64,000 nt of DNA, taken from positions 2,542,001 to 2,606,000 of the forward strand of contig NC_008319.1 of NCBI RefSeq assembly GCF_000014585.1, read 5' to 3'. The DNA is from Synechococcus sp. CC9311. Its GTDB lineage: Bacteria; Cyanobacteriota; Cyanobacteriia; PCC-6307; Cyanobiaceae. Positions 25,152 through 50,283 of this stretch are shown here, one piece after another. Within the stretch, counting starts at the first letter, position 1; each line of letters opens with the position of its first letter. Under the pieces are notes generated by a model, which was not told the DNA's origin, did not search any database, and saw nothing but the letters and a program-made list of their open reading frames with translations. A program made the position numbers and the translations under genes.

Positions 25152-25697
25152 ATGGATCTCGCAGTTACTTGGCTAGATGAGCCACTGAATCTTTCTCTAG
25201 TGGCAAGGAATACATTCAGAAGAAGGTCACTTCAAGAGCGATTAACCGAAACCTCAAAATTCCCTTGGCAGGCAGAAGAAACCAATTCCTTCACTTTAGA
25301 GAAAACCACAGCCAACTACGAATTCTCCAACAAAGCAAACAGATCGATTGAAATTATACATAATAAAGAAACATCAATACCTGCCCATGCCTTCCTAAGC
25401 AATTCATCTGAAAAAGATGGCTTTCGAACGCAAAACAATAAGCACTCTAGTGTCAAAAGTTGCACTGATTCAAGCGCATGCTTTGACCCTTCATGTTCAC
25501 GAGTAAATCTATTGAGTGAGGGCAGCAATGTCTTAAAGGAATTAGCACTGCATGAATGGGAGGCTCGATTCGCCGACGGGCTTTTATGCCGACGACGACG
25601 ACGGTTCCAATTCAGGACTCAAATACCCGCGAACAGACAGAAGAAGCATGAACGAGATAAAAGCAGATTGGCTTCAGCCAATCAATTGCTGCACTAG
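25152..25697 (+). CDS. Hypothetical orphan protein, 181 aa
   Basis: An open frame of 181 codons with ATG, low in GC like the subtilase that follows. The N-terminal part is mixed charge (MDLAVTWLDEPLNLSLVARN), the middle is Ser/Asn-rich with three Cys (KSCTDSSACFDPSCS), and the C-terminus becomes strongly basic (LLCRRRRRFQFRTQ). There is no signal peptide, membrane helix or recognised domain. From about 25552 a second frame reads NGRLDSPTGFYADDDDGS, which looks at least as protein-like, so a frameshift near 25550 is possible. It may be a decayed gene. Confidence 0.3.
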   Translation: MDLAVTWLDEPLNLSLVARNTFRRRSLQERLTETSKFPWQAEETNSFTLEKTTANYEFSNKANRSIEIIHNKETSIPAHAFLSNSSEKDGFRTQNNKHSSVKSCTDSSACFDPSCSRVNLLSEGSNVLKELALHEWEARFADGLLCRRRRRFQFRTQIPANRQKKHERDKSRLASANQLLH

Positions 25698-25859: not shown

Positions 25860-28800
25860 ATGAATTCTTCTCAAAACTTTTTGGATGCGGCTCTCGAGCT
25901 CATCAAAAAAACTAGGCGTTCAAGGTCTTCAAGCCCAGAAGAATTGCGAATTTATCCGGGAGAAAATAATGACAAATTTAGAACAAGCGGATTAGCAAAA
26001 GGAGCAAATGCACTTGAAGCCTCAAGCAGTTCACTATTGAACAGAGAAATAATACCTTTACTAACCAATGCAAGCAAAGAAATTATCCCCGAAGCCACGT
26101 CATTTTCAATCCAGAAAATACCTTATGAACAAGCTAAGCAGACATTGCCGAGCAAAGAGTTTACCTTAAGCAGTAACTCAAATTCGATCGAGCCTCAAGG
26201 AGACCCAACTGATACTTATTATTACGTACAATGGGGCCTTGAAGATACAGAGTCTGGAAGCAATGCAAATGCAGCATGGGATCTTGGAATAACCGGCTCA
26301 CTTTCAAACGTCATTGGGGTGATAGACACCGGAATAGACTACAAACACCCTGACCTATATTTAAACATTTGGCTCAATCCGGGCGAAACTCCAGGCGGAG
26401 TGATTGACATAAATAATGACGGATTAATTACCTTTCACGACCTCAATGACAGCCGCAACTCATCTTTTGCCTGGGATTTTGATCTAGAAGGAGAATATGG
26501 GCATGGCTATGTAGACGCAGGAGATCTTTTCAGGAATAGCATTTGGATGGATGGCATTGACAAAGAAAGCAACGGTTACACAGATGATTTAATCGGATGG
26601 GACTTTGCTAATAATGACTTTGACCCTTATGACGACAATTTTCATGGCACTCATGTTGCTGGAACAATTGGAGCGCTTTCAAACAATCAACAAGGAGTCG
26701 CTGGTGTCAACTGGGATATTCAATTAACACCTCTAAAATTTCTTAATGGGAATGGAAGCGGTTCTACTCAGGGAGCAATTGATTCCATAAACTATTTTAA
26801 TGATGCTGCCAGTAGATACGATTCATTACTCACGAACAATGGTAATGCACGCTACTTAGCAACAAATAACTCTTGGGGCGGAGGGGGATACAACTCAGCT
26901 CTTGATGCATCGATACAGGAAGGAGCAGAACTCGGCATTATTTTTGTAGCATCTGCAGGCAATGACGCAAACAATAACGATCTAGTCGGATATTATCCTG
27001 CGAACTATCAGGCAATTCAAAACAATGTGGATCATGTTATTTCAGTTGCATCAATTGATGCAAGTGGAGCAGCTTCCTCATTCACCAACTATGGGACTGA
27101 GACTGTGGATATCGCAGCTCCTGGAGGGAGCATTGGCTCAACTTCCCCAAATAACAGATATGTGTATTCATCGGGGACTTCGATGGCAGCTCCACATGTA
27201 TCAGGAGCGCTAGGACTTTTAGCAAGCAAAAATTCACAAGCCACAAGCTCAGAGCTAATCCAAGCTCTGTACTCTGGCGCGGATCAGGACAATAATTTAC
27301 GCGATATATCAAAAGATGGCAAACGCTTAAATATAACTGGCTCACTAGATGTATTGCCTCAGAATAACACCATAGCTACGCCTACCCTCGCCATTGCTGC
27401 TGACTCACCAACACAAAATGAAGGTGATCAAAACAGCACTGCTTTCTCTTTCACCGTCACCAGAGAAGGTGATCTCTCCAATGACAGCTCCGTTCTCTGG
27501 TCTGTCATCAATGGCTCAACCACTGATAATGATTTCTTAAATGGCTCTCCTCCTTCCGGAGAGATCTTTTTTACGGATGGTAGTGCATCTCAAACCATCA
27601 CAGTTAATGTCGCAGGAGATACACAAGTCGAAACGAATGAAACCTTCTCTGTGGTTCTTTCTTCGGCCAACAACGCAACCATTAATACTCCTTCTGCATC
27701 AGCAATCATCATTAACGATGATCAAGAGCCTGCGCCTACCCTCGCCATTGCCGCTGACTCACCAACACAAAATGAAGGTGATCAAAACAGCACTGCTTTC
27801 TCTTTCACCGTCACCAGAGAAGGTGATCTCTCCAATGACAGCTCCGTTCTCTGGTCTGTCATCAATGGCTCAACCACTGATAATGATTTCTTAAATGGCT
27901 CTCCTCCTTCCGGAGAGATCTTTTTTACGGATGGTAGTGCATCTCAAACCATCACAGTTAATGTCGCAGGAGATACACAAGTCGAAACGAATGAAACCTT
28001 CTCTGTGGTTCTTTCTTCGGCCAACAACGCAACCATTAATACTCCTTCTGCATCAGCAATCATCATTAACGATGATCAAGAGCCTGCGCCTACCCTCGCC
28101 ATTGCCGCTGACTCACCAACACAAAATGAAGGTGATCAAAACAGCACTGCTTTCTCTTTCACCGTCACCAGAGAAGGTGATCTCTCCAATGACAGCTCCG
28201 TTCTCTGGTCTGTCATCAATGGCTCAACCACTGATAATGATTTCTTAAATGGCTCTCCTCCTTCCGGAGAGATCTTTTTTACGGATGGTAGTGCATCTCA
28301 AACCATCACAGTTAATGTCGCAGGAGATACACAAGTCGAAACGAATGAAACCTTCTCTGTGGTTCTTTCTTCGGCCAACAACGCAACCATTAATACTCCT
28401 TCTGCATCAGCAATCATCATTAACGATGATCAAGAGCCTGCGCCTACCCTCGCCATTGCCGCTGACTCACCAACACAAAATGAAGGTGATCAAAACAGCA
28501 CTGCTTTCTCTTTCACCGTCACCAGAGAAGGTGATCTCTCCAATGACAGCTCCGTTCTCTGGTCTGTCATCAATGGCTCAACCACTGATAATGATTTCTT
28601 AAATGGCTCTCCTCCTTCCGGAGAGATCTTTTTTACGGATGGTAGTGCATCTCAAACCATCACAGTTAATGTCGCAGGAGATACACAAGTCGAAACGAAT
28701 GAAACCTTCTCTGTGGTTCTTTCTTCGGCCAACAACGCAACCATTAATACTCCTTCTGCATCAGCAATCATCATTAACGATGATCAAGAGCCTGCGCCTA

Positions 28801-30974
28801 CCCTCGCCATTGCTGCTGACTCACCAACACAAAATGAAGGTGATCAAAACAGCACTGCTTTCTCTTTCACCGTCACCAGAGAAGGTGATCTCTCCAATGA
28901 CAGCTCCGTTCTCTGGTCTGTCATCAATGGCTCAACCACTGATAATGATTTCTTAAATGGCTCTCCTCCTTCCGGAGAGATCTTTTTTACGGATGGTAGT
29001 GCATCTCAAACCATCACAGTTAATGTCGCAGGAGATACACAAGTCGAAACGAATGAAACCTTCTCTGTGGTTCTTTCTTCGGCCAACAACGCAACCATTA
29101 ATACTCCTTCTGCATCAGCAATCATCATTAACGATGATCAAGAGCCTGCGCCTACCCTCGCCATTGCCGCTGACTCACCAACACAAAATGAAGGTGATCA
29201 AAACAGCACTGCTTTCTCTTTCACCGTCACCAGAGAAGGTGATCTCTCCAATGACAGCTCCGTTCTCTGGTCTGTCATCAATGGCTCAACCACTGATAAT
29301 GATTTCTTAAATGGCTCTCCTCCTTCCGGAGAGATCTTTTTTACGGATGGTAGTGCATCTCAAACCATCACAGTTAATGTCGCAGGAGATACACAAGTCG
29401 AAACGAATGAAACCTTCTCTGTGGTTCTTTCTTCGGCCAACAACGCAACCATTAATACTCCTTCTGCATCAGCAATCATCATTAACGATGATCAAGAAGA
29501 TACTCCTGTTACCCCAAGTGAACAGATTATCTTCTCCGATGACTTTGAATCAGCAAACTTTGAGAACAACTGGCAACAAGACTCTCAAAACGATTGGCGA
29601 CGACGTCAAAATGCAAGATCGATAGACAACTTCTCTGCTGAATTTGATGGTCGGGCCAATAACGCAACGCTTCAATTGCGTGAATCACTCGACATTTCTT
29701 CCTTTGACGACGTTCATATCAGTGTGCAATGGCTTATTGAAACCTCTTTTGACAATAATGAGTTCCTGGCCATTGACGTATCCATTGACAATGGATCGTG
29801 GCAAGAAATTGATCTATTATCAGGAGCCAGTGGAATTGGCGGAGACGAACAATCGGGAAATCCTTTTCAAGATGGTGTCTTTAAATTAAGTGACTCTCTT
29901 ACTAATTTTGCTAACGCATCCACTTTAGACCTGAGATTTAGAGGCACGGCCAGCAGAGGAAATGAAGATGGTTATGTTGATAATGTCATAATTACAGGGT
30001 TGAATCAAAATGGGGTAAAGCCTGCGCCTACCCTCGCCATTGCCGCTGACTCACCAACACAAAATGAAGGTGATCAAAACAGCACTGCTTTCTCTTTCAC
30101 CGTCACCAGAGAAGGTGATCTCTCCAATGACAGCTCCGTTCTCTGGTCTGTCATCAATGGCTCAACCACTGATAATGATTTCTTAAATGGCTCTCCTCCT
30201 TCCGGAGAGATCTTTTTTACGGATGGTAGTGCATCTCAAACCATCACAGTTAATGTCGCAGGAGATACACAAGTCGAAACGAATGAAACCTTCTCTGTGG
30301 TTCTTTCTTCGGCCAACAACGCAACCATTAATACTCCTTCTGCATCAGCAATCATCATTAACGATGATCAAGAAGATACTCCTGTTACCCCAAGTGAACA
30401 GATTATCTTCTCCGATGACTTTGAATCAGCAAACTTTGAGAACAACTGGCAACAAGACTCTCAAAACGATTGGCGACGACGTCAAAATGCAAGATCGATA
30501 GACAACTTCTCTGCTGAATTTGATGGTCAGGCCAATAACGCAACGCTTCAATTGCGTGAATCACTCGACATTTCTTCCTTTGACGACGTTCATATCAGTG
30601 TGCAATGGCTTATTGAAACCTCTTTTGACAATAATGAGTTCCTGGCCATTGACGTATCCATTGACAATGGATCGTGGCAAGAAATTGATCTATTATCAGG
30701 AGCCAGTGGAATTGGCGGAGACGAACAATCGGGAAATCCTTTTCAAGATGGTGTCTTTAAATTAAGTGACTCTCTTACTAATTTTGCTAACGCATCCACT
30801 TTAGACCTGAGATTTAGAGGCACGGCCAGCAGAGGAAATGAAGATGGTTATGTTGATAATGTCATAATTACAGGGTTGAATCAAAATTCTGAGTCAAGCT
30901 TTGCATCTATCCATCAATTCAACTCTTCTTATTCTCTAACAGATTTTGGATTACTCCCTGACCCAATTAGTTGA
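25860..30974 (+). CDS. Giant S8 subtilase with tandem Calx-beta repeats and duplicated jelly-roll-like domain
   Basis: 1704 residues. Subtilisin-type serine protease domain at about residues 120-490 with the catalytic set complete: Asp156 (GVIDTGIDYKHPDL), His262 (HGTHVAGTIGAL), oxyanion Asn337 (NNSWGGGG) and Ser441 (SSGTSMAAPHVSGALG). No classical signal peptide; the first 120 residues may be a propeptide. From residue 508 come six adjacent Calx-beta-like modules of 118 residues (pattern EGD--FSFTVTREGD through ETFSVVLSSAN to AIIINDD). Then comes a roughly 170-residue beta-rich domain beginning FSDDFESANFENNW, then a seventh Calx-beta module and a second copy of the beta-rich domain. A unique tail ends the protein. 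Calx-beta domains usually bind calcium in extracellular adhesins, so this is probably a secreted or surface protein exported without a Sec signal. Target unknown. Confidence 0.9.
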   Translation: MNSSQNFLDAALELIKKTRRSRSSSPEELRIYPGENNDKFRTSGLAKGANALEASSSSLLNREIIPLLTNASKEIIPEATSFSIQKIPYEQAKQTLPSKEFTLSSNSNSIEPQGDPTDTYYYVQWGLEDTESGSNANAAWDLGITGSLSNVIGVIDTGIDYKHPDLYLNIWLNPGETPGGVIDINNDGLITFHDLNDSRNSSFAWDFDLEGEYGHGYVDAGDLFRNSIWMDGIDKESNGYTDDLIGWDFANNDFDPYDDNFHGTHVAGTIGALSNNQQGVAGVNWDIQLTPLKFLNGNGSGSTQGAIDSINYFNDAASRYDSLLTNNGNARYLATNNSWGGGGYNSALDASIQEGAELGIIFVASAGNDANNNDLVGYYPANYQAIQNNVDHVISVASIDASGAASSFTNYGTETVDIAAPGGSIGSTSPNNRYVYSSGTSMAAPHVSGALGLLASKNSQATSSELIQALYSGADQDNNLRDISKDGKRLNITGSLDVLPQNNTIATPTLAIAADSPTQNEGDQNSTAFSFTVTREGDLSNDSSVLWSVINGSTTDNDFLNGSPPSGEIFFTDGSASQTITVNVAGDTQVETNETFSVVLSSANNATINTPSASAIIINDDQEPAPTLAIAADSPTQNEGDQNSTAFSFTVTREGDLSNDSSVLWSVINGSTTDNDFLNGSPPSGEIFFTDGSASQTITVNVAGDTQVETNETFSVVLSSANNATINTPSASAIIINDDQEPAPTLAIAADSPTQNEGDQNSTAFSFTVTREGDLSNDSSVLWSVINGSTTDNDFLNGSPPSGEIFFTDGSASQTITVNVAGDTQVETNETFSVVLSSANNATINTPSASAIIINDDQEPAPTLAIAADSPTQNEGDQNSTAFSFTVTREGDLSNDSSVLWSVINGSTTDNDFLNGSPPSGEIFFTDGSASQTITVNVAGDTQVETNETFSVVLSSANNATINTPSASAIIINDDQEPAPTLAIAADSPTQNEGDQNSTAFSFTVTREGDLSNDSSVLWSVINGSTTDNDFLNGSPPSGEIFFTDGSASQTITVNVAGDTQVETNETFSVVLSSANNATINTPSASAIIINDDQEPAPTLAIAADSPTQNEGDQNSTAFSFTVTREGDLSNDSSVLWSVINGSTTDNDFLNGSPPSGEIFFTDGSASQTITVNVAGDTQVETNETFSVVLSSANNATINTPSASAIIINDDQEDTPVTPSEQIIFSDDFESANFENNWQQDSQNDWRRRQNARSIDNFSAEFDGRANNATLQLRESLDISSFDDVHISVQWLIETSFDNNEFLAIDVSIDNGSWQEIDLLSGASGIGGDEQSGNPFQDGVFKLSDSLTNFANASTLDLRFRGTASRGNEDGYVDNVIITGLNQNGVKPAPTLAIAADSPTQNEGDQNSTAFSFTVTREGDLSNDSSVLWSVINGSTTDNDFLNGSPPSGEIFFTDGSASQTITVNVAGDTQVETNETFSVVLSSANNATINTPSASAIIINDDQEDTPVTPSEQIIFSDDFESANFENNWQQDSQNDWRRRQNARSIDNFSAEFDGQANNATLQLRESLDISSFDDVHISVQWLIETSFDNNEFLAIDVSIDNGSWQEIDLLSGASGIGGDEQSGNPFQDGVFKLSDSLTNFANASTLDLRFRGTASRGNEDGYVDNVIITGLNQNSESSFASIHQFNSSYSLTDFGLLPDPIS
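27381..29500 (+). repeat. Six tandem 354-bp coding repeats (Calx-beta modules)
   Basis: Copies begin at 27381, 27735, 28089, 28443, 28797 and 29151, each exactly 354 bases, in frame (118 codons). By eye they are identical except for one synonymous site, the 18th base of each copy: T in copies 1 and 5 (27398, 28814), C in the others. A seventh copy starts at 30027. Such identity at silent positions means very recent amplification or continuing homogenisation. Confidence 0.95.
29151..30887 (+). repeat. Duplicated 861-bp composite unit (Calx-beta plus beta-rich domain)
   Basis: 29151-30011 and 30027-30887 are the same sequence offset by 876 bases. I find one difference: G at 29653 and A at 30529, changing Arg (GRANNATLQ) to Gln (GQANNATLQ). 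A 15-base linker separates the copies. The unit contains the sixth and seventh Calx-beta copies, so the composite duplication arose after the Calx-beta array existed. Confidence 0.93.
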
Positions 30975-37963: not shown

Positions 37964-38101
37964 TCAAGGTTCTGCATCAGCACCCCAGACGGCAGGAACC
38001 TTCTGCCAACCATTCCGAAGCAGATCCCTCCACATACCCTCTGCCTGCTCCCTACGAAGGTGCTTACGGATCTTTAGAAGAGCAGGAGAACCATCAGGCA
38101 T
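37964..38101 (-). CDS. DUF1651-like small protein, 45 aa
   Basis: ATG 38101 to TGA 37964, 45 residues: starts MPDGSPALLKIRKHLRREQA and continues MWRDLLRNGWQKVPAVWG. The pattern of a basic helix followed by W--LL--GW--VP--W is the C-terminal signature of the DUF1651 family common in Prochlorococcus and marine Synechococcus. Family members are usually longer, and an in-frame stop lies 27 bases upstream of the ATG, so this may be an N-terminally truncated copy. Function unknown. Confidence 0.5.
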   Translation of the reverse strand: MPDGSPALLKIRKHLRREQAEGMWRDLLRNGWQKVPAVWGADAEP

Positions 38102-38306
38102 TGCACCAATACAACCAACAAATAAATTTTAGCAGAATTGACATTTATACTTACTTGTTCGCGATCACTTAAATGAGCACAAAAATCCACTAGTTCTTGC
38201 GAGATTAGGAATTCAATTGCATTTCGAACGAATTTGAAGTTTGAGTTCACATATTAATATTCATGTTAGAATAATTAGACAATCTTCAAAAAATACCTCA
38301 TTAGTC
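38102..38306. other. AT-rich spacer before the acyltransferase gene
   Basis: About 200 AT-rich bases without a supported gene. It would have to contain the promoter of the acyltransferase gene; several A/T runs are present but no clear -35/-10 pair. Confidence 0.35.
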
Positions 38307-40364
38307 GTGATCAGCGAAAAATCCCTAGAAGTAAAAAAAACAAGATATCGACCAGAGATTGATGGTCTAAGAGCATTTGCAGTGGTTGCGGTCATCATCA
38401 ATCATTTCAATAAAGACGTACTGCCAGGAGGATATCTTGGTGTTGATATTTTCTTTGTGATATCTGGATATGTCATCACATCATCTTTGTTCGGAAGACC
38501 AAGCAAAGATTTCAAGGATTTCATCAGTGGGTTCTATGAGCGGAGGATCAAGCGACTAGTTCCTGCACTCTCTGTTTTTATACTGATCACAAGCATTGCG
38601 ATCTGCTTATTCAATCCATCGCCAGGGACATCACTGAAGACAGGAATAACGTCATTATTCGGACTATCAAATCTCTACCTATTTAAGAATTCGACGGATT
38701 ACTTTGCTCAGTCAACAGAACTCAATGTCTTCACGCACACATGGTCTCTTGGGGTTGAAGAGCAGTTCTACATATTGTTTCCTTTCCTGATTTGGTTTTC
38801 AGGATTTGGACGACAAACCAAGAATGGTGCTCGCAACCTTTTTTTAATAGTTGGGATATTGACGATTGCATCTCTGATTGGATTTCTTTATCTGTATCCA
38901 ACGAACCAACCAGCAGCATATTTCTTGATGCCATCAAGGTTTTGGGAGATGGCAGCAGGTTGTCTGATCTTTATTGGATTTCAGAAGCGAGCATCAGTTG
39001 AACAATTGCTAGAGAAAGTGCCACCTCTCCTGGTGGTGGCACTGATTGTGGGTGTGATGTTTCTTCCGATGTCGATGGCAGCAGTATCCACCATTGCAGT
39101 GGTGGTGCTGTCTTCCATCCTCATCGCCTCCTTGAAGAAACAGACAGCAGCATTCAAGGTCTTTACTAATCCCCAGGTCGTCAATATCGGTCTGATCTCC
39201 TACTCGCTGTATCTATGGCACTGGGGGGTGCTCTCGATCAGTCGTCGGACTATTGGCATCCACTGGTGGTCAGTTCCCTTCCAGGTCGCCCTGATGCTTG
39301 GTCTAGCGATTGCTTCTTACCGATGGATCGAGACACCACTTCGCAAGGGCAACTGGTTTGGGAAGCGATGGAAGACCTTGGCAGTTGGCGGAGGAGTGTT
39401 GGTTGCTCTTTCTGGAGGTCTGATTGCTCTTTACAAACCACTGAAAGGCAAGTTCTACACAGGAAACCCTAATTACAATAGATTTGGCGGGAAAGTTGTT
39501 ATCAACAATATTACGTTAAACGATGAATGTACACCAAGAGAAGTCGTAGATGGTCTCAAACCAGAGTGCATTAATCTGCACTCAAAACCCAGCGGACGCA
39601 TTCATTTGCTTGGGGATAGTCATATGCAGCATTACCTTCCCATGTTTGAACGCTTATCAGAAGAATATGGTTGGAGTTATTACTTCTATGGAAGGTCAGG
39701 ATTCCCTGTAGGAAAGAGATACTTAAAAGGGAAGCAAGGAAAACTAGTGGACGATGCCGACATGAAATATGCTATTAATAAGGTTATAGAAAGATTAGAT
39801 TCTGGGGATATATTCATAATTTCGGAAAGAAATGAACGGAACTTCTCGCCTTATATGTTTGATCTTGGTGCTGGATATGTAAAATTTGTGGATGAAAATG
39901 GAGATTCTGTGCCCAAGAGAGAAGCACTTAAAAACTATAAAGAATACTTAATACGATTAGCGGGAAAAATAAATTCTCGGGGGGCAGTTATGATTTTGTT
40001 TCAACCTACGCCTTCGTTTAAGGGTATTGTAAATGGCGTGGATGCTATTTGTTCTGAGTGGTATGGAAAATATAACAATCATTGCTCTTATTCCATGGGG
40101 AGTATTGACAGACGCGAATGGGTAGATCACGTATCTGTTATCAAAAGGATGCATGAGCAAGTTGCAAATATTTATGGCAACACGCTGACATTCGATCCGT
40201 TTACTTACTTATGTCCCCCAAATATGGACAAATGCCCAAGGAAGATGAACGGCAAGATGCTTTATTTTGATGATGATCACTTAAGCGACTACTCATCAGA
40301 ATACATCTATTCCAACTTTGCATCTTTCCTGAGAAGCAAGGGATTACTGAGAAGGAGTGATTAA
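38307..40364 (+). CDS. Membrane O-acyltransferase (acyltransferase-3) with C-terminal SGNH domain
   Basis: About 685 residues. Residues 10-380 are the acyltransferase-3 (OafA-like) membrane domain: YRPEIDGLRAFAVVAVIINH, LGVDIFFVISGYVIT, YERRIKRLVPAL, and THTWSLGVEEQFYILFP with the catalytic-region His and Arg. The C-terminal half is an SGNH hydrolase-like domain with IHLLGDSHMQHYLP. Such fusions acetylate surface polysaccharide or peptidoglycan. GTG 38307 is my preferred start; a TTG at 38241 is in frame. The gene sits alone in an AT-rich island next to an integrase remnant, suggesting acquisition by transfer of a cell-surface modification gene. Confidence 0.9.
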   Translation: MISEKSLEVKKTRYRPEIDGLRAFAVVAVIINHFNKDVLPGGYLGVDIFFVISGYVITSSLFGRPSKDFKDFISGFYERRIKRLVPALSVFILITSIAICLFNPSPGTSLKTGITSLFGLSNLYLFKNSTDYFAQSTELNVFTHTWSLGVEEQFYILFPFLIWFSGFGRQTKNGARNLFLIVGILTIASLIGFLYLYPTNQPAAYFLMPSRFWEMAAGCLIFIGFQKRASVEQLLEKVPPLLVVALIVGVMFLPMSMAAVSTIAVVVLSSILIASLKKQTAAFKVFTNPQVVNIGLISYSLYLWHWGVLSISRRTIGIHWWSVPFQVALMLGLAIASYRWIETPLRKGNWFGKRWKTLAVGGGVLVALSGGLIALYKPLKGKFYTGNPNYNRFGGKVVINNITLNDECTPREVVDGLKPECINLHSKPSGRIHLLGDSHMQHYLPMFERLSEEYGWSYYFYGRSGFPVGKRYLKGKQGKLVDDADMKYAINKVIERLDSGDIFIISERNERNFSPYMFDLGAGYVKFVDENGDSVPKREALKNYKEYLIRLAGKINSRGAVMILFQPTPSFKGIVNGVDAICSEWYGKYNNHCSYSMGSIDRREWVDHVSVIKRMHEQVANIYGNTLTFDPFTYLCPPNMDKCPRKMNGKMLYFDDDHLSDYSSEYIYSNFASFLRSKGLLRRSD

Positions 40365-47179: not shown

Positions 47180-48292
47180 TTGAAGGAACGGGACGTGAAC
47201 GACGCACAAGAGACTCCTCCACCCCTAGAGGGGAAAGTCTCTGCCGGTGTGCTTGCCGTTGTTGTGTATGCAGCAGCATTTGCATCAGACCGCTGGATCC
47301 CCAACAGCCTCCTAAGCCTCCCCTTGCTGATTGCGACGCTGATCGCAGCAATTGTGACCTGGTGGGGTGTACCAAAGCTGCGTGGCTTAAAGCTCGGGCA
47401 AGTGATCCGAGAAGAGGGGCCCCAGGCCCATCTCACAAAATCAGGAACACCCACAATGGGCGGACTCCTGGTGGTGCCGGTCGGCGTGATCGTGGGCGGC
47501 CTCATCAGTTGGAGCGGTCAAGCCGCTGAACAACTTTTAGCTGTGGCGTTCATCACACTCGCTTACATGGTGGTAGGTGGAATTGACGATTGGCGCAGTC
47601 TCACCAAACACACCAACACCGGTTTAACGCCACGCGGCAAATTACTTCTTCAAGCCTTAGCCGCCGTGATCTTTCTGATCTGGGCAGGAATGCGCGGTTG
47701 GATCAGTGGTGATGTGGCCTTGCCGTTTGACATCAATCTTCCCTTGAACTGGCTGATTTGGCCTCTTGCAGTGTTTGTGTTTTTAGCCGAAAGCAACGCC
47801 ACAAACCTCACCGATGGCCTCGATGGTCTGGCCGCCGGTTGCGGTGCCTTGGTGTTCACGGGAATGGCACTCCAACTCACACTGCGCGGAAACAGCGGAG
47901 ATCCAAGCCTTGCTGGGTTCTGCATGGCCATGGCGGGCTGCTGGATTGGTTTTCTTGTGCACAACCGAAATCCAGCCAAAGTGTTTATGGGCGACACCGG
48001 CTCTCTAGCCATGGGAGGTGCTCTCACTGCTGTAGCCCTGTTAACAAACAGCCTTTGGCCCTTGCTGATCATGGGTGGAATATTCCTAGCGGAATCTCTC
48101 TCCGTGATCATTCAAGTGTGGGTTTTCAAAGCAACCAAAGGCGCTGATGGCATTGGACGCCGTGTTTTCCGAATGTCACCCCTGCACCATCACTTTGAGT
48201 TGGGCGGCACACCAGAGCAGCTGGTAGTTCCGGGATTCTGGCTAGCAACAGTATTCTTAGTATTAATTGGAATCTTCTTTAAACCTAATTGA
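47180..48292 (+). CDS. mraY: Phospho-N-acetylmuramoyl-pentapeptide transferase MraY
   Basis: Membrane enzyme making lipid I of peptidoglycan. Ten hydrophobic segments; motifs [32 protein letters not shown] (Asp-Asp), [29 protein letters not shown] and the histidine triad [10 protein letters not shown]. 370 residues; GTG 47195 is an alternative start. No other mur genes are adjacent, as usual in cyanobacteria. Confidence 0.95.
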
Positions 48293-48555
48293 AATAACCT
48301 AATCAAAGTCATTGGCTAGAAACAATCAGGAAATTTATACTTGGGCATTGCCCATAAAATTGTATTCGTATCAGAATACACATAAACTATGTTATTAGAT
48401 TCAACGCATTTATGCCAATATCAAAATCGTCCCTGATGCAGCTCATCCTTTATTAAGGATTTTCTAAGGAAATGAGCGGCACGCTCTATTGAAAAACCAA
48501 GAATACTCTCTAGGATAATTTTCTATGTAATTCATAATCTGTAATTTCAGCGATC
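48293..48555. other. AT-rich spacer with inverted repeats upstream of the outer-membrane gene
   Basis: 263 bases, markedly AT-rich. It holds three palindromes: GGGC/GCCC with an ATT centre near 48343, TGTATTC/GAATACA (48361-48367, 48374-48380) and ATCCTT/AAGGAT (48445-48450, 48455-48460). The last may be a weak terminator of mraY (TTTTC follows); the middle one looks like an operator. Confidence 0.4.
48361..48380. promoter_or_regulatory. 20-bp palindrome, possible operator
   Basis: Seven-base arms TGTATTC and GAATACA around a six-base centre. It lies about 180 bases upstream of the outer-membrane protein gene. Regulator unknown. Confidence 0.3.
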
Positions 48556-50283
48556 ATGAAACTAATTAGTAATTCAATTTATGTTGGATCTTCCTTTTTA
48601 ATGGCATCCAGTCTGGCTATAAAGCCTGCTTTGTCAGATCAATATTTTCAGTCTGTTAAAACGGATGCAGGTAAAACCTATTGCATTGGAATTGAGAGAG
48701 GATTTCTTGATTGGCCTGGTCCTCAATTTAGTGATGGAGGAAATCAGGGCAAATGGTCACTTGATGATCAAGATTGGTATGTTGGTTACCAGACTTCAAA
48801 ACGTGGAGCATTAGCAAAAGAATTATCAAATAAAAGCGGTTTTCTTTACGCATTCGGTACAAATGTAGATAATAATATTGAGTGGAGGAACAGTGGGTTC
48901 AGGCAACAGACTTATTACAGCAATAGCAATAATAGCGAACCGGGCTTAAAAAATGTCGGAAACTTTGCCAAAGCATTTGATTCAGAACAATGCGAATCAC
49001 CTGATCCAATCCTTCCAATCAATCCGGGCGACATTACTGTTCCCCTTGATCCCGCCAATCCTGACAACGAAGTTCAACCTTCACAACCAACCCTTATTGA
49101 TTACTTAAGTGGCATAGATCGAGAAACACGACTTCGAAATCTCGGCAGAGCTGTCAATGCTCTCGTGATTCCACGCAACGTTACAGCCAGTGGTTTAGCT
49201 ACTCAAGCATATGTAAATGATCTTTCTGACACAATCTTAGAACGATTACCATCCCGCCAACTCAAGACTGAATTATCTGAAGTAAATTCGCAAAACCAAG
49301 ACAGCAATCAAGAATTTGAAATAGGAGGAAAAAAATACTTTGAAAGTTCGGACCTTCAAAGCTCGTTTTTAGAGTCTGCGGGTACACGAGGCTGGGTACG
49401 AGGTTTTGGAGGAAGTAACTCACCTTCCAAAACAGGCGGCCTCACAAGAAATAATATTGAATACCCTGACGTATACAACAACTTTTATTCCACACATGGA
49501 GGCTTTGTTGTTGGCATCGATACATCCATCACAGAGAATATTCAATTAGGCTTTTTTGGTAACTACGGTAATATTTCTCTTCAGCAGTTTTCAGGGGATT
49601 ACACAGGTGGTGGCTCATGGAATCCTGAGGGCTGGGGTGGTGGAATCTCGGCTTCTTATTGGACGGAAAGCTTTTACATTCAAGGACTTTTTGGTGCAAC
49701 ATCATTTTCCGGAACAAACATACGTGAAGTAAAGATTCCACGTATTATCAATGAAAATTATCGTGCCACTAAAAATACAACTTCTTATATGGGTGCCTTA
49801 AGGATAGGAGCACCTCTAACATCTGGTAGAACAATTATTGAACCACAATTTACAGCAATTTGGAATGGCATTCAAAACTCCGAATTTACTGAATCAGGTC
49901 GTTTTGACAGCCTAGCCCTAAAAACTAATTCTTATTACGAGCAATTTCTCCAGACTGCATTAGGCGCCAAACTTTCATGGCCGATTCCCCAAAAGAATGG
50001 CAACTTATTCACACCTACAGTTCGTGTTGCATGGCTTGCTGATTGGAACACTGGGAATGGAGATATTTCTTTTGAACTTGCTAATGCCAAAAATTCTGTT
50101 AAAGCAAAAATTCCATCAAACCAAACAAACGAGAATGGTGTCTTATTAGAAGGGGGAATTGATTATGCAATCTTTAATGGTCCAACTTCAGGGTGGAAAC
50201 TATATTTCAAAGGGGGTGCGAAAATTTGGGCAAATAGATCAACAGATTGGCGTACCAGCGGAGGCCTTACGTTTCAATTCTAA
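48556..50283 (+). CDS. Autotransporter-like outer-membrane beta-barrel protein
   Basis: 575 residues. A Sec signal peptide (residues 1-26, ending KPALS) is followed by a soluble region with Asn/Ser/Gly and a Pro-rich linker (PINPGDITVPLDPANPDNE), a helix with repeated polar residues, and then a C-terminal domain of about 290 residues starting GTRGWVRGFGGSN. The alternating hydrophobic strands and the terminal Phe (SGGLTFQF) are the pattern of autotransporter-type barrels inserted by BamA. The passenger is short and has no catalytic motif. The surrounding DNA is AT-rich, so it may have been acquired. Function unknown; adhesion is one guess. Confidence 0.75.
   Translation: MKLISNSIYVGSSFLMASSLAIKPALSDQYFQSVKTDAGKTYCIGIERGFLDWPGPQFSDGGNQGKWSLDDQDWYVGYQTSKRGALAKELSNKSGFLYAFGTNVDNNIEWRNSGFRQQTYYSNSNNSEPGLKNVGNFAKAFDSEQCESPDPILPINPGDITVPLDPANPDNEVQPSQPTLIDYLSGIDRETRLRNLGRAVNALVIPRNVTASGLATQAYVNDLSDTILERLPSRQLKTELSEVNSQNQDSNQEFEIGGKKYFESSDLQSSFLESAGTRGWVRGFGGSNSPSKTGGLTRNNIEYPDVYNNFYSTHGGFVVGIDTSITENIQLGFFGNYGNISLQQFSGDYTGGGSWNPEGWGGGISASYWTESFYIQGLFGATSFSGTNIREVKIPRIINENYRATKNTTSYMGALRIGAPLTSGRTIIEPQFTAIWNGIQNSEFTESGRFDSLALKTNSYYEQFLQTALGAKLSWPIPQKNGNLFTPTVRVAWLADWNTGNGDISFELANAKNSVKAKIPSNQTNENGVLLEGGIDYAIFNGPTSGWKLYFKGGAKIWANRSTDWRTSGGLTFQF

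Follow-up and report, generated by a model that had tools for sequence, protein, structure and literature searches.

The window analysed here is a 64,000-nucleotide stretch (bases 2,542,001–2,606,000) of the genome of Synechococcus sp. CC9311, which a table in PMC2441476 gives as complete, with one contig of 2.61 Mb and 52.5% GC. The protease gene described next, its parts, and the upstream open reading frame lie on the plus strand. A subtilase gene (25860–30974) encodes a protein of 1704 amino acids, and the list of open reading frames, the translation, and Pfam give its layout as a protease, six A units, B, A, B, and a short tail. The single-copy N-terminal part (25860–27374) carries a Peptidase_S8 domain (amino acids 151–474), as identified by Pfam and structure–sequence comparison. 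It is followed by a tandem array of six 354-bp Calx-beta units of 118 amino acids each (A1–A6, 27375–29498), found by self-comparison, Tandem Repeats Finder, and Pfam; by B1 (29499–30020), a 522-bp domain of 174 amino acids recognized by self-match and predicted from a model to be a MAM/reelin-like jelly roll; by a seventh Calx-beta unit, A7 (30021–30374), which equals A6 away from the edges in the copy comparison; by a second B copy, B2 (30375–30896), in which the self-match detected one base unlike B1 away from the edges; and by a short C-terminal tail that includes the stop codon (30897–30974, from the translation). One A and one B together form an 876-bp block (354 + 522), which is itself duplicated. 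The insert that contains the protease gene also holds an upstream open reading frame of 181 amino acids (25152–25697), for which a profile search returned no Pfam or NCBIfam match.

The Pfam match of the N-terminal part to Peptidase_S8 (E = 1.1e-49; 169.8 bits against a cut-off of 21.8) places the protein among the subtilases, and D156, H262, S441, and N336, located by motif, are presumably its catalytic and oxyanion residues. The nearest solved relative of the protease part is the S8 enzyme deseasin MCP-01 (E = 8.4e-61), which is alike in the catalytic domain; the 334-residue chain that was compared differs in having no Calx-beta/jelly-roll array. Seven stretches behind the subtilase domain belong to the Calx-beta family (PF03160; E = 4.1e-76 in Pfam), in accordance with the original prediction that Calx-beta modules are joined here to a protease. 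In a structural model of A-B (mean pLDDT 81, pTM 0.52), the A part, with pLDDT mostly above 84, was similar to the CBD1 crystal structures of NCX/CALX, with TM-scores to the target of 0.73–0.85. Calcium binding is a property of some Calx-beta members, and the A unit ends in an acidic motif, NDDQE; by homology, the A units are predicted to bind calcium. Several weak Pfam names in the repeat region (among them CPT_N, Grp7_allergen, and DUF4330) were dropped because identical copies sum up weak matches, and no stretch passes by itself.

The model of B alone (pLDDT 82, pTM 0.82) resembles MAM, reelin, carbohydrate-binding, and gingipain adhesin domains, with TM-scores by query of 0.42–0.64 among the 50 matches listed, and B is probably a ligand- or carbohydrate-binding jelly-roll domain. 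In searches with B, Pfam listed no match up to an E-value of 5, and none of the solved structures was related in sequence up to an E-value of 1. The K3 adhesin domain of gingipain Kgp (3m1h; TM-score 0.57–0.59, 14% identity) is one among many folds, of the MAM, reelin, and carbohydrate-binding kinds, that the model resembles. Gingipain-type proteases bear cleaved-adhesin jelly rolls, and their peptidase family differs from S8; the present protein further differs from them in its two B copies and in showing no evidence of processing. Four cyanobacterial loci (L151–L154) have relatives of B behind proteases of the HExxH type, a motif recognized by eye in the translated sequences; a collection scan added 15 loci with such relatives, namely seven of the Planctomycetota type, five of the Patescibacteria type, and one each from Omnitrophota, a further bacterium, and Synechocystis (the genome of L151). 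B (29499–30020 in the window; L190–L204) seems to represent a family without a Pfam entry that is present in cyanobacteria and in Planctomycetota-type and candidate-phylum MAGs.

Identity of the repeat copies in CC9311

The start-to-start spacing of the seven A copies is 354 bp five times and then 876 bp, which agrees with the prediction of seven near-identical Calx-beta modules, six in tandem and one 876 bases on. Tandem Repeats Finder reported a period of 354 with 6.0 copies and 99% matches at 27379–29497. When the copies were compared over 354 columns with copy 2 as the reference, copies 3 and 4 showed no difference, copy 5 had a single change (C to T at unit position 23), copy 1 had T at the same position and one deviating left-edge base, and copies 6 and 7 differed only at two edge bases, where B starts. 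With six columns trimmed from each edge, any pair among the seven copies shows 0 or 1 differences in 342 columns. The T/C site, whose order along the copies is T C C C T C C, occupies the third position of an alanine codon (GCT/GCC, position 27398) and is therefore silent. Silent divergence among the copies, the check proposed with the original prediction, thus comes to one T/C site across seven A copies; the accompanying statement that the modules differ only at one silent base holds, apart from the few edge bases that differ as well.

A self-match of A plus B at an offset of 876 covers 29143–30011 with one mismatch, at 29653 versus 30529, where B1 encodes R and B2 encodes Q. The offset of 876 reflects this second, larger duplication of A+B, whose end coincides with the end of the predicted repeat at 30887, although the prediction mentioned Calx-beta modules only. 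At an offset of 354 the gene matches itself exactly over 1061 bases, and at an offset of 876 over 510 bases, which excludes chance similarity. A search of the whole genome (2,606,748 bases, single contig) with one A unit yielded seven matches, all inside the protease gene, and a genome-wide dispersed repeat was likewise dismissed. Protein-level selection alone was rejected as the source of copy identity because the silent sites of the copies are identical too.

Comparison with strain G006

In a search of the genus with the protein, 14 of 31 genomes gave a match, but the gene itself is present only in the source genome (100% identity) and in the sister strain G006 (90–95%); matches in the remaining genomes share 30–49% identity and involve the protease domain only. 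Calx-beta was found in those same two of the 31 genomes. The G006 ortholog occupies the corresponding genomic site, and its array contains a 100-N scaffold gap with an adapter-like 19-mer on both sides; four A copies, two of them partial, are readable, so that G006 has at least four units versus seven in the source strain. The adapter-like 19-mers in the G006 protease gene (L032, 9772–9909) keep the reading frame open and, once translated, would lead protein annotation astray.

These observations bear on whether the array is an assembly artefact, its true length being shorter or longer than six units. A 2.1-kb array of units that are 99–100% identical is hard to assemble, the G006 assembly breaks exactly in the array, and the repeat-rich swmB gene of another marine Synechococcus was rebuilt by hand, according to the consulted part of the report (PMC4559175). 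The source genome, however, is one contig, its T/C site splits the copies into two kinds, and the A-B-A-B arrangement is present in both strains. We consider an artefact improbable; it would put in doubt how many units there are exactly, but not that the array exists.

The two strains share the B1–A7 junction (NQNGVKP), which is unlike the B2–tail and A–A junctions, and also the R/Q site that distinguishes B1 from B2. These shared features indicate that the AB-AB block predates the strain split. In the two-strain count over this block, the first 42 A columns, absent in one copy at the gap, were omitted, and the last 12 B columns, of which the eight positional ones are the junction itself, were counted apart. 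On this basis, five A columns group by strain (two silent), none by position, and one is private. Among the B columns, 13 group by strain (four silent) and one by position; of 15 others, 9 and 5 changed in one G006 copy only, and 1 is of another kind. The readable A copies (seven from the source strain and four from G006, edges trimmed) show 0–1 differences within a strain and 4–7 between strains. A6 and A7 are identical in the source strain, and in G006 a single difference separates them over the 306 bases compared. Since A6 and A7 are alike within but different between strains, and AB-AB is older than the split, the A copies have been homogenized since then, i.e. they have undergone concerted evolution. 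The suggestion that the array is being homogenized now was borne out, as recent homogenization, against the second strain, with five A columns grouping by strain and none by position. The B copies are less tightly homogenized than the A copies: B1 and B2 differ at no silent and one other site in the source strain and at seven silent and eight other sites in G006, where homogenization is incomplete (15 differing sites). The locus thus provides a tested case of concerted evolution within one gene of an ocean phototroph.

Recombination is the simplest candidate agent of this homogenization. Gene conversion and/or unequal crossing over would keep the A units identical within a strain while the strains drift apart, and the B domains would be kept alike by the same process, less tightly. 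Taken as a whole, the locus is best explained as a recombination-homogenized repeat tail on an accessory, probably exported subtilase, a reading to which we assign a probability of roughly 0.7. Homogenization may also have proceeded at constant length, by gene conversion with a stable number of units, the repeats then serving as a binding or stiffening tail. The likeness of A6 and A7 in both strains, across the intervening B1, is naturally read as conversion and favours this version. The number of identical copies in a tandem array would in general be expected to change, and in other subtilases of the genus modules of other kinds occur 1.8 to 6 times, which speaks weakly against a constant length; we place it somewhat below even odds.

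Genomic setting, origin, and export

The protease insert is flanked by two genes, one for a ClC channel and one for a radical-SAM protein. A close homologue of the latter is present in 29 of the 31 genomes, G020 and G030 having a distant paralogue only. Outside the source genome (G000) and G006, ClC adjoins radical-SAM in 25 of 27 loci, with aligned ends 118–323 bp apart, and is not within the fetched flank at the other two; in the source strain, the gap between the two annotated genes is 6214 bp. The protease gene has a GC content of 0.435 and a GC3 of 0.345–0.394, compared with a GC3 of 0.588–0.664 in three neighbour genes. The gene is therefore an accessory, AT-rich insert found in two of the 31 genus genomes. 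The 181-residue upstream open reading frame also occurs in G006, with 67% protein identity over amino acids 1–171. Elsewhere in the window, a 575-residue autotransporter beta-domain protein (48556–50283) lies in a low-GC stretch (0.41 at 48001–50000) and is a candidate accessory surface gene, and an acyltransferase–SGNH fusion (38241–40364) marks a second such stretch (0.42 at 38001–40000).

Between-strain silent divergence is 0.45 in acnB, 0.35 in clc, and 0.24 in radical-SAM. Within the protease gene, it is 0.17 in the protease part, 0.20 in the tail (33 codons), 0.06–0.12 in B (same position), and 0.02–0.055 in A (three pairs). A thus diverged less at silent sites than the protease part did (p = 0.0008 for the first copy and 0.003 for the last in Fisher tests, uncorrected and with sites taken as independent). 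Low divergence of A between the strains may reflect exchange of the array between lineages, which would blur timing. Under a star model, the probability of at most two silent changes in seven independent copies is 0.026, 1e-5, and 1.5e-19 at dS values of 0.024, 0.055, and 0.169, respectively; copies evolving independently would seldom retain such a low number of silent changes. A ready-made array that arrived very recently would be too young to have diverged and would need no homogenizing; it would accord with an AT-rich gene confined to two of 31 genomes and with silent divergence lower than that of the flanking genes. Between the strains, however, five columns of A and 13 of B differ in a way common to both copies of each strain, indicating that changes arose after the split and then passed from copy to copy, and such an arrival is accordingly very improbable.

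No donor of the array was found: outside G000 and G006, identity was at most 53% among the matches listed, apart from one fragment at 54%. Matches to A-B occurred in 61 of 400 genomes of the family and 92 of 386 genomes of the phylum, and among the matches listed only those in G243, G413, G475, and G492 cover much of B. With the whole protein, tblastn matched 41 phage records, none of them with as much as 60% identity (the best 20 cover the protease part), and A-B gave 22 plasmid records, also all below 60%; an exact 33-base A pattern had no match in viral contigs. A scan of the genome collection with the whole protein returned 10 stretches that fit a pattern, among which no relative was confirmed. 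In cyanobacterial Calx-beta loci outside the genus, the units are identical in some cases and not in others; since these loci were hand-picked from match lists, partly for equal scores, no rate was drawn from them. Among the papers listed by the literature searches, none described the protease array.

Judged by its type, the protease is probably secreted, and a type I system is the putative export route; the C-terminal tail behind B2 might conceivably carry an export signal. Signal peptides and membrane segments were judged by eye, with no evident signal peptide, and Pfam listed no anchor domain for the 1704-residue protein and no HemolysinCabind match in the protease gene, i.e. no sign of the RTX type. 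The location at the cell surface that the original prediction assumed is therefore putative. Genes for an ABC transporter and for an HlyD-type adaptor that scores above the curated cut-off are present elsewhere in the source genome, away from the protease gene; in a control search, the HlyD-type adaptor gave a match in 13 of 14 genomes, one of them above the cut-off. In a locus of the source genome outside the window (L206, 1370–9000), ABC transporter and HlyD-type genes are followed by a large DUF5801/VWA open reading frame, a possible export substrate.

Array length and related repeat proteins

Because all unit lengths (354, 522, and 876) are divisible by three, gain or loss of units stays in frame. 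On/off phase variation by unit number, which had been proposed for this array, is therefore unlikely, and a frame-shifting form of it was rejected. Gain or loss of A units would instead change the tail in steps of 118 amino acids and leave the protease intact. By homology of its domains, the tail is most likely a spacer and binding module that would set the reach or avidity of the protease.

Periscope Proteins, in the consulted parts of two reports (PMC8201768, PMC9704523), consist of a single chain with tandem repeats that fold individually and are highly identical to one another; they vary in length and project a functional domain. As far as those parts go, the examples SasG, Rib, Sgo_0707, and CdrA are like the present protein in their near-identical arrays of folding domains, in an N-terminal functional domain, and in DNA identity high enough to permit intragenic recombination; they differ in being adhesive or biofilm proteins, whereas here the head is a protease and Pfam found no anchor. 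The protease shares the single chain and the identical, individually folding repeats that characterize this group and, by analogy, may work in the Periscope manner with a protease as its head, as an unproven candidate member.

Size variation of the Periscope type, in which unit number differs between cells or strains and is selected so as to tune protease reach, is compatible with a recombination-homogenized tail and adds real length change to it. Near-identical, individually folding repeats are the hallmark of Periscope Proteins, whose length varies most at the highest identity according to the same portions of the reports (PMC8201768, PMC9704523), and the T C C C T C C order is one that block-wise unequal exchange could leave. 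No copy-number difference was observed, however, between the one source assembly and the gapped G006 array, and an anchor family was lacking in Pfam. We regard such variation as a tentative possibility, below even odds.

Within the genus, SwmB, a protein of 10,791 amino acids that serves motility in marine Synechococcus according to the excerpt consulted (PMC4949707), makes the earlier label 'giant' generous for the present protein of 1704 residues, which has a catalytic domain. Like it, SwmB and further giant repeat proteins from the genus contain, in the portions of the reports seen, repetitive regions that hinder assembly, and these proteins are often strain-specific (PMC4949707, PMC4559175, PMC9387257).

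Near-identical repeated modules, defined by at least 99.6% self-identity in a 240-bp window, were also detected in five of the 15 other subtilase loci obtained from the genus protein search. These comprise modules of 345 bp (4.84 copies, G007), 336 bp (5.63 copies, G004), and 348 bp (1.89 copies, G009), all W_rich_C, and of 357 bp (5.95 copies, G024) and 282 bp (1.82 copies, G015, placed before the protease), both without a firm family. Like the CC9311 gene, the five carry 1.8–6 near-identical modules of a length divisible by three; unlike it, they have no Calx-beta, and their protease domains share 36–42% identity with the source protease. The other ten loci have no such modules, the best self-identity being 0.858 in one and none reaching 0.8 in nine; among them, G014 ends at a contig end, and G022 and the second locus of G007 lack a protease motif in their longest open reading frames.

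The kind of feature is known, and its interest lies in the protease head and in the recurrence beside some other Synechococcus subtilases. It extends the idea of a stalk of identical repeats from adhesins to a protease, and since identical modules of other kinds stand beside other Synechococcus subtilases, the tuning of extracellular enzymes by repeat number becomes a testable question in bacteria. A broader proposal, that marine Synechococcus carry interchangeable, self-homogenizing module arrays on secreted subtilases, with a different module in each lineage (Calx-beta, W_rich_C, or an unassigned 357-bp module) beside the protease, amplified in frame to about five or six identical copies and recombining continually, is speculative and rather unlikely as a whole; if true, the reach or avidity of extracellular proteolysis would be a rapidly adjustable trait in the ocean.

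The modules of G007, four complete ones of 345 bp plus the 291 bp present of another, are identical to each other in DNA sequence and share 62% protein identity with those of G009, the same within-versus-between pattern as above in a comparison confined to sequence identity. The G007 subtilase also carries nine HemolysinCabind stretches. DUF7383 and DUF6805 were dropped as family labels for the G024 module, as identical copies add up weak matches. Behind the G024 subtilase (L166, 3201–5325), almost six 357-bp modules are present, with an exact self-match of 1768 bases.
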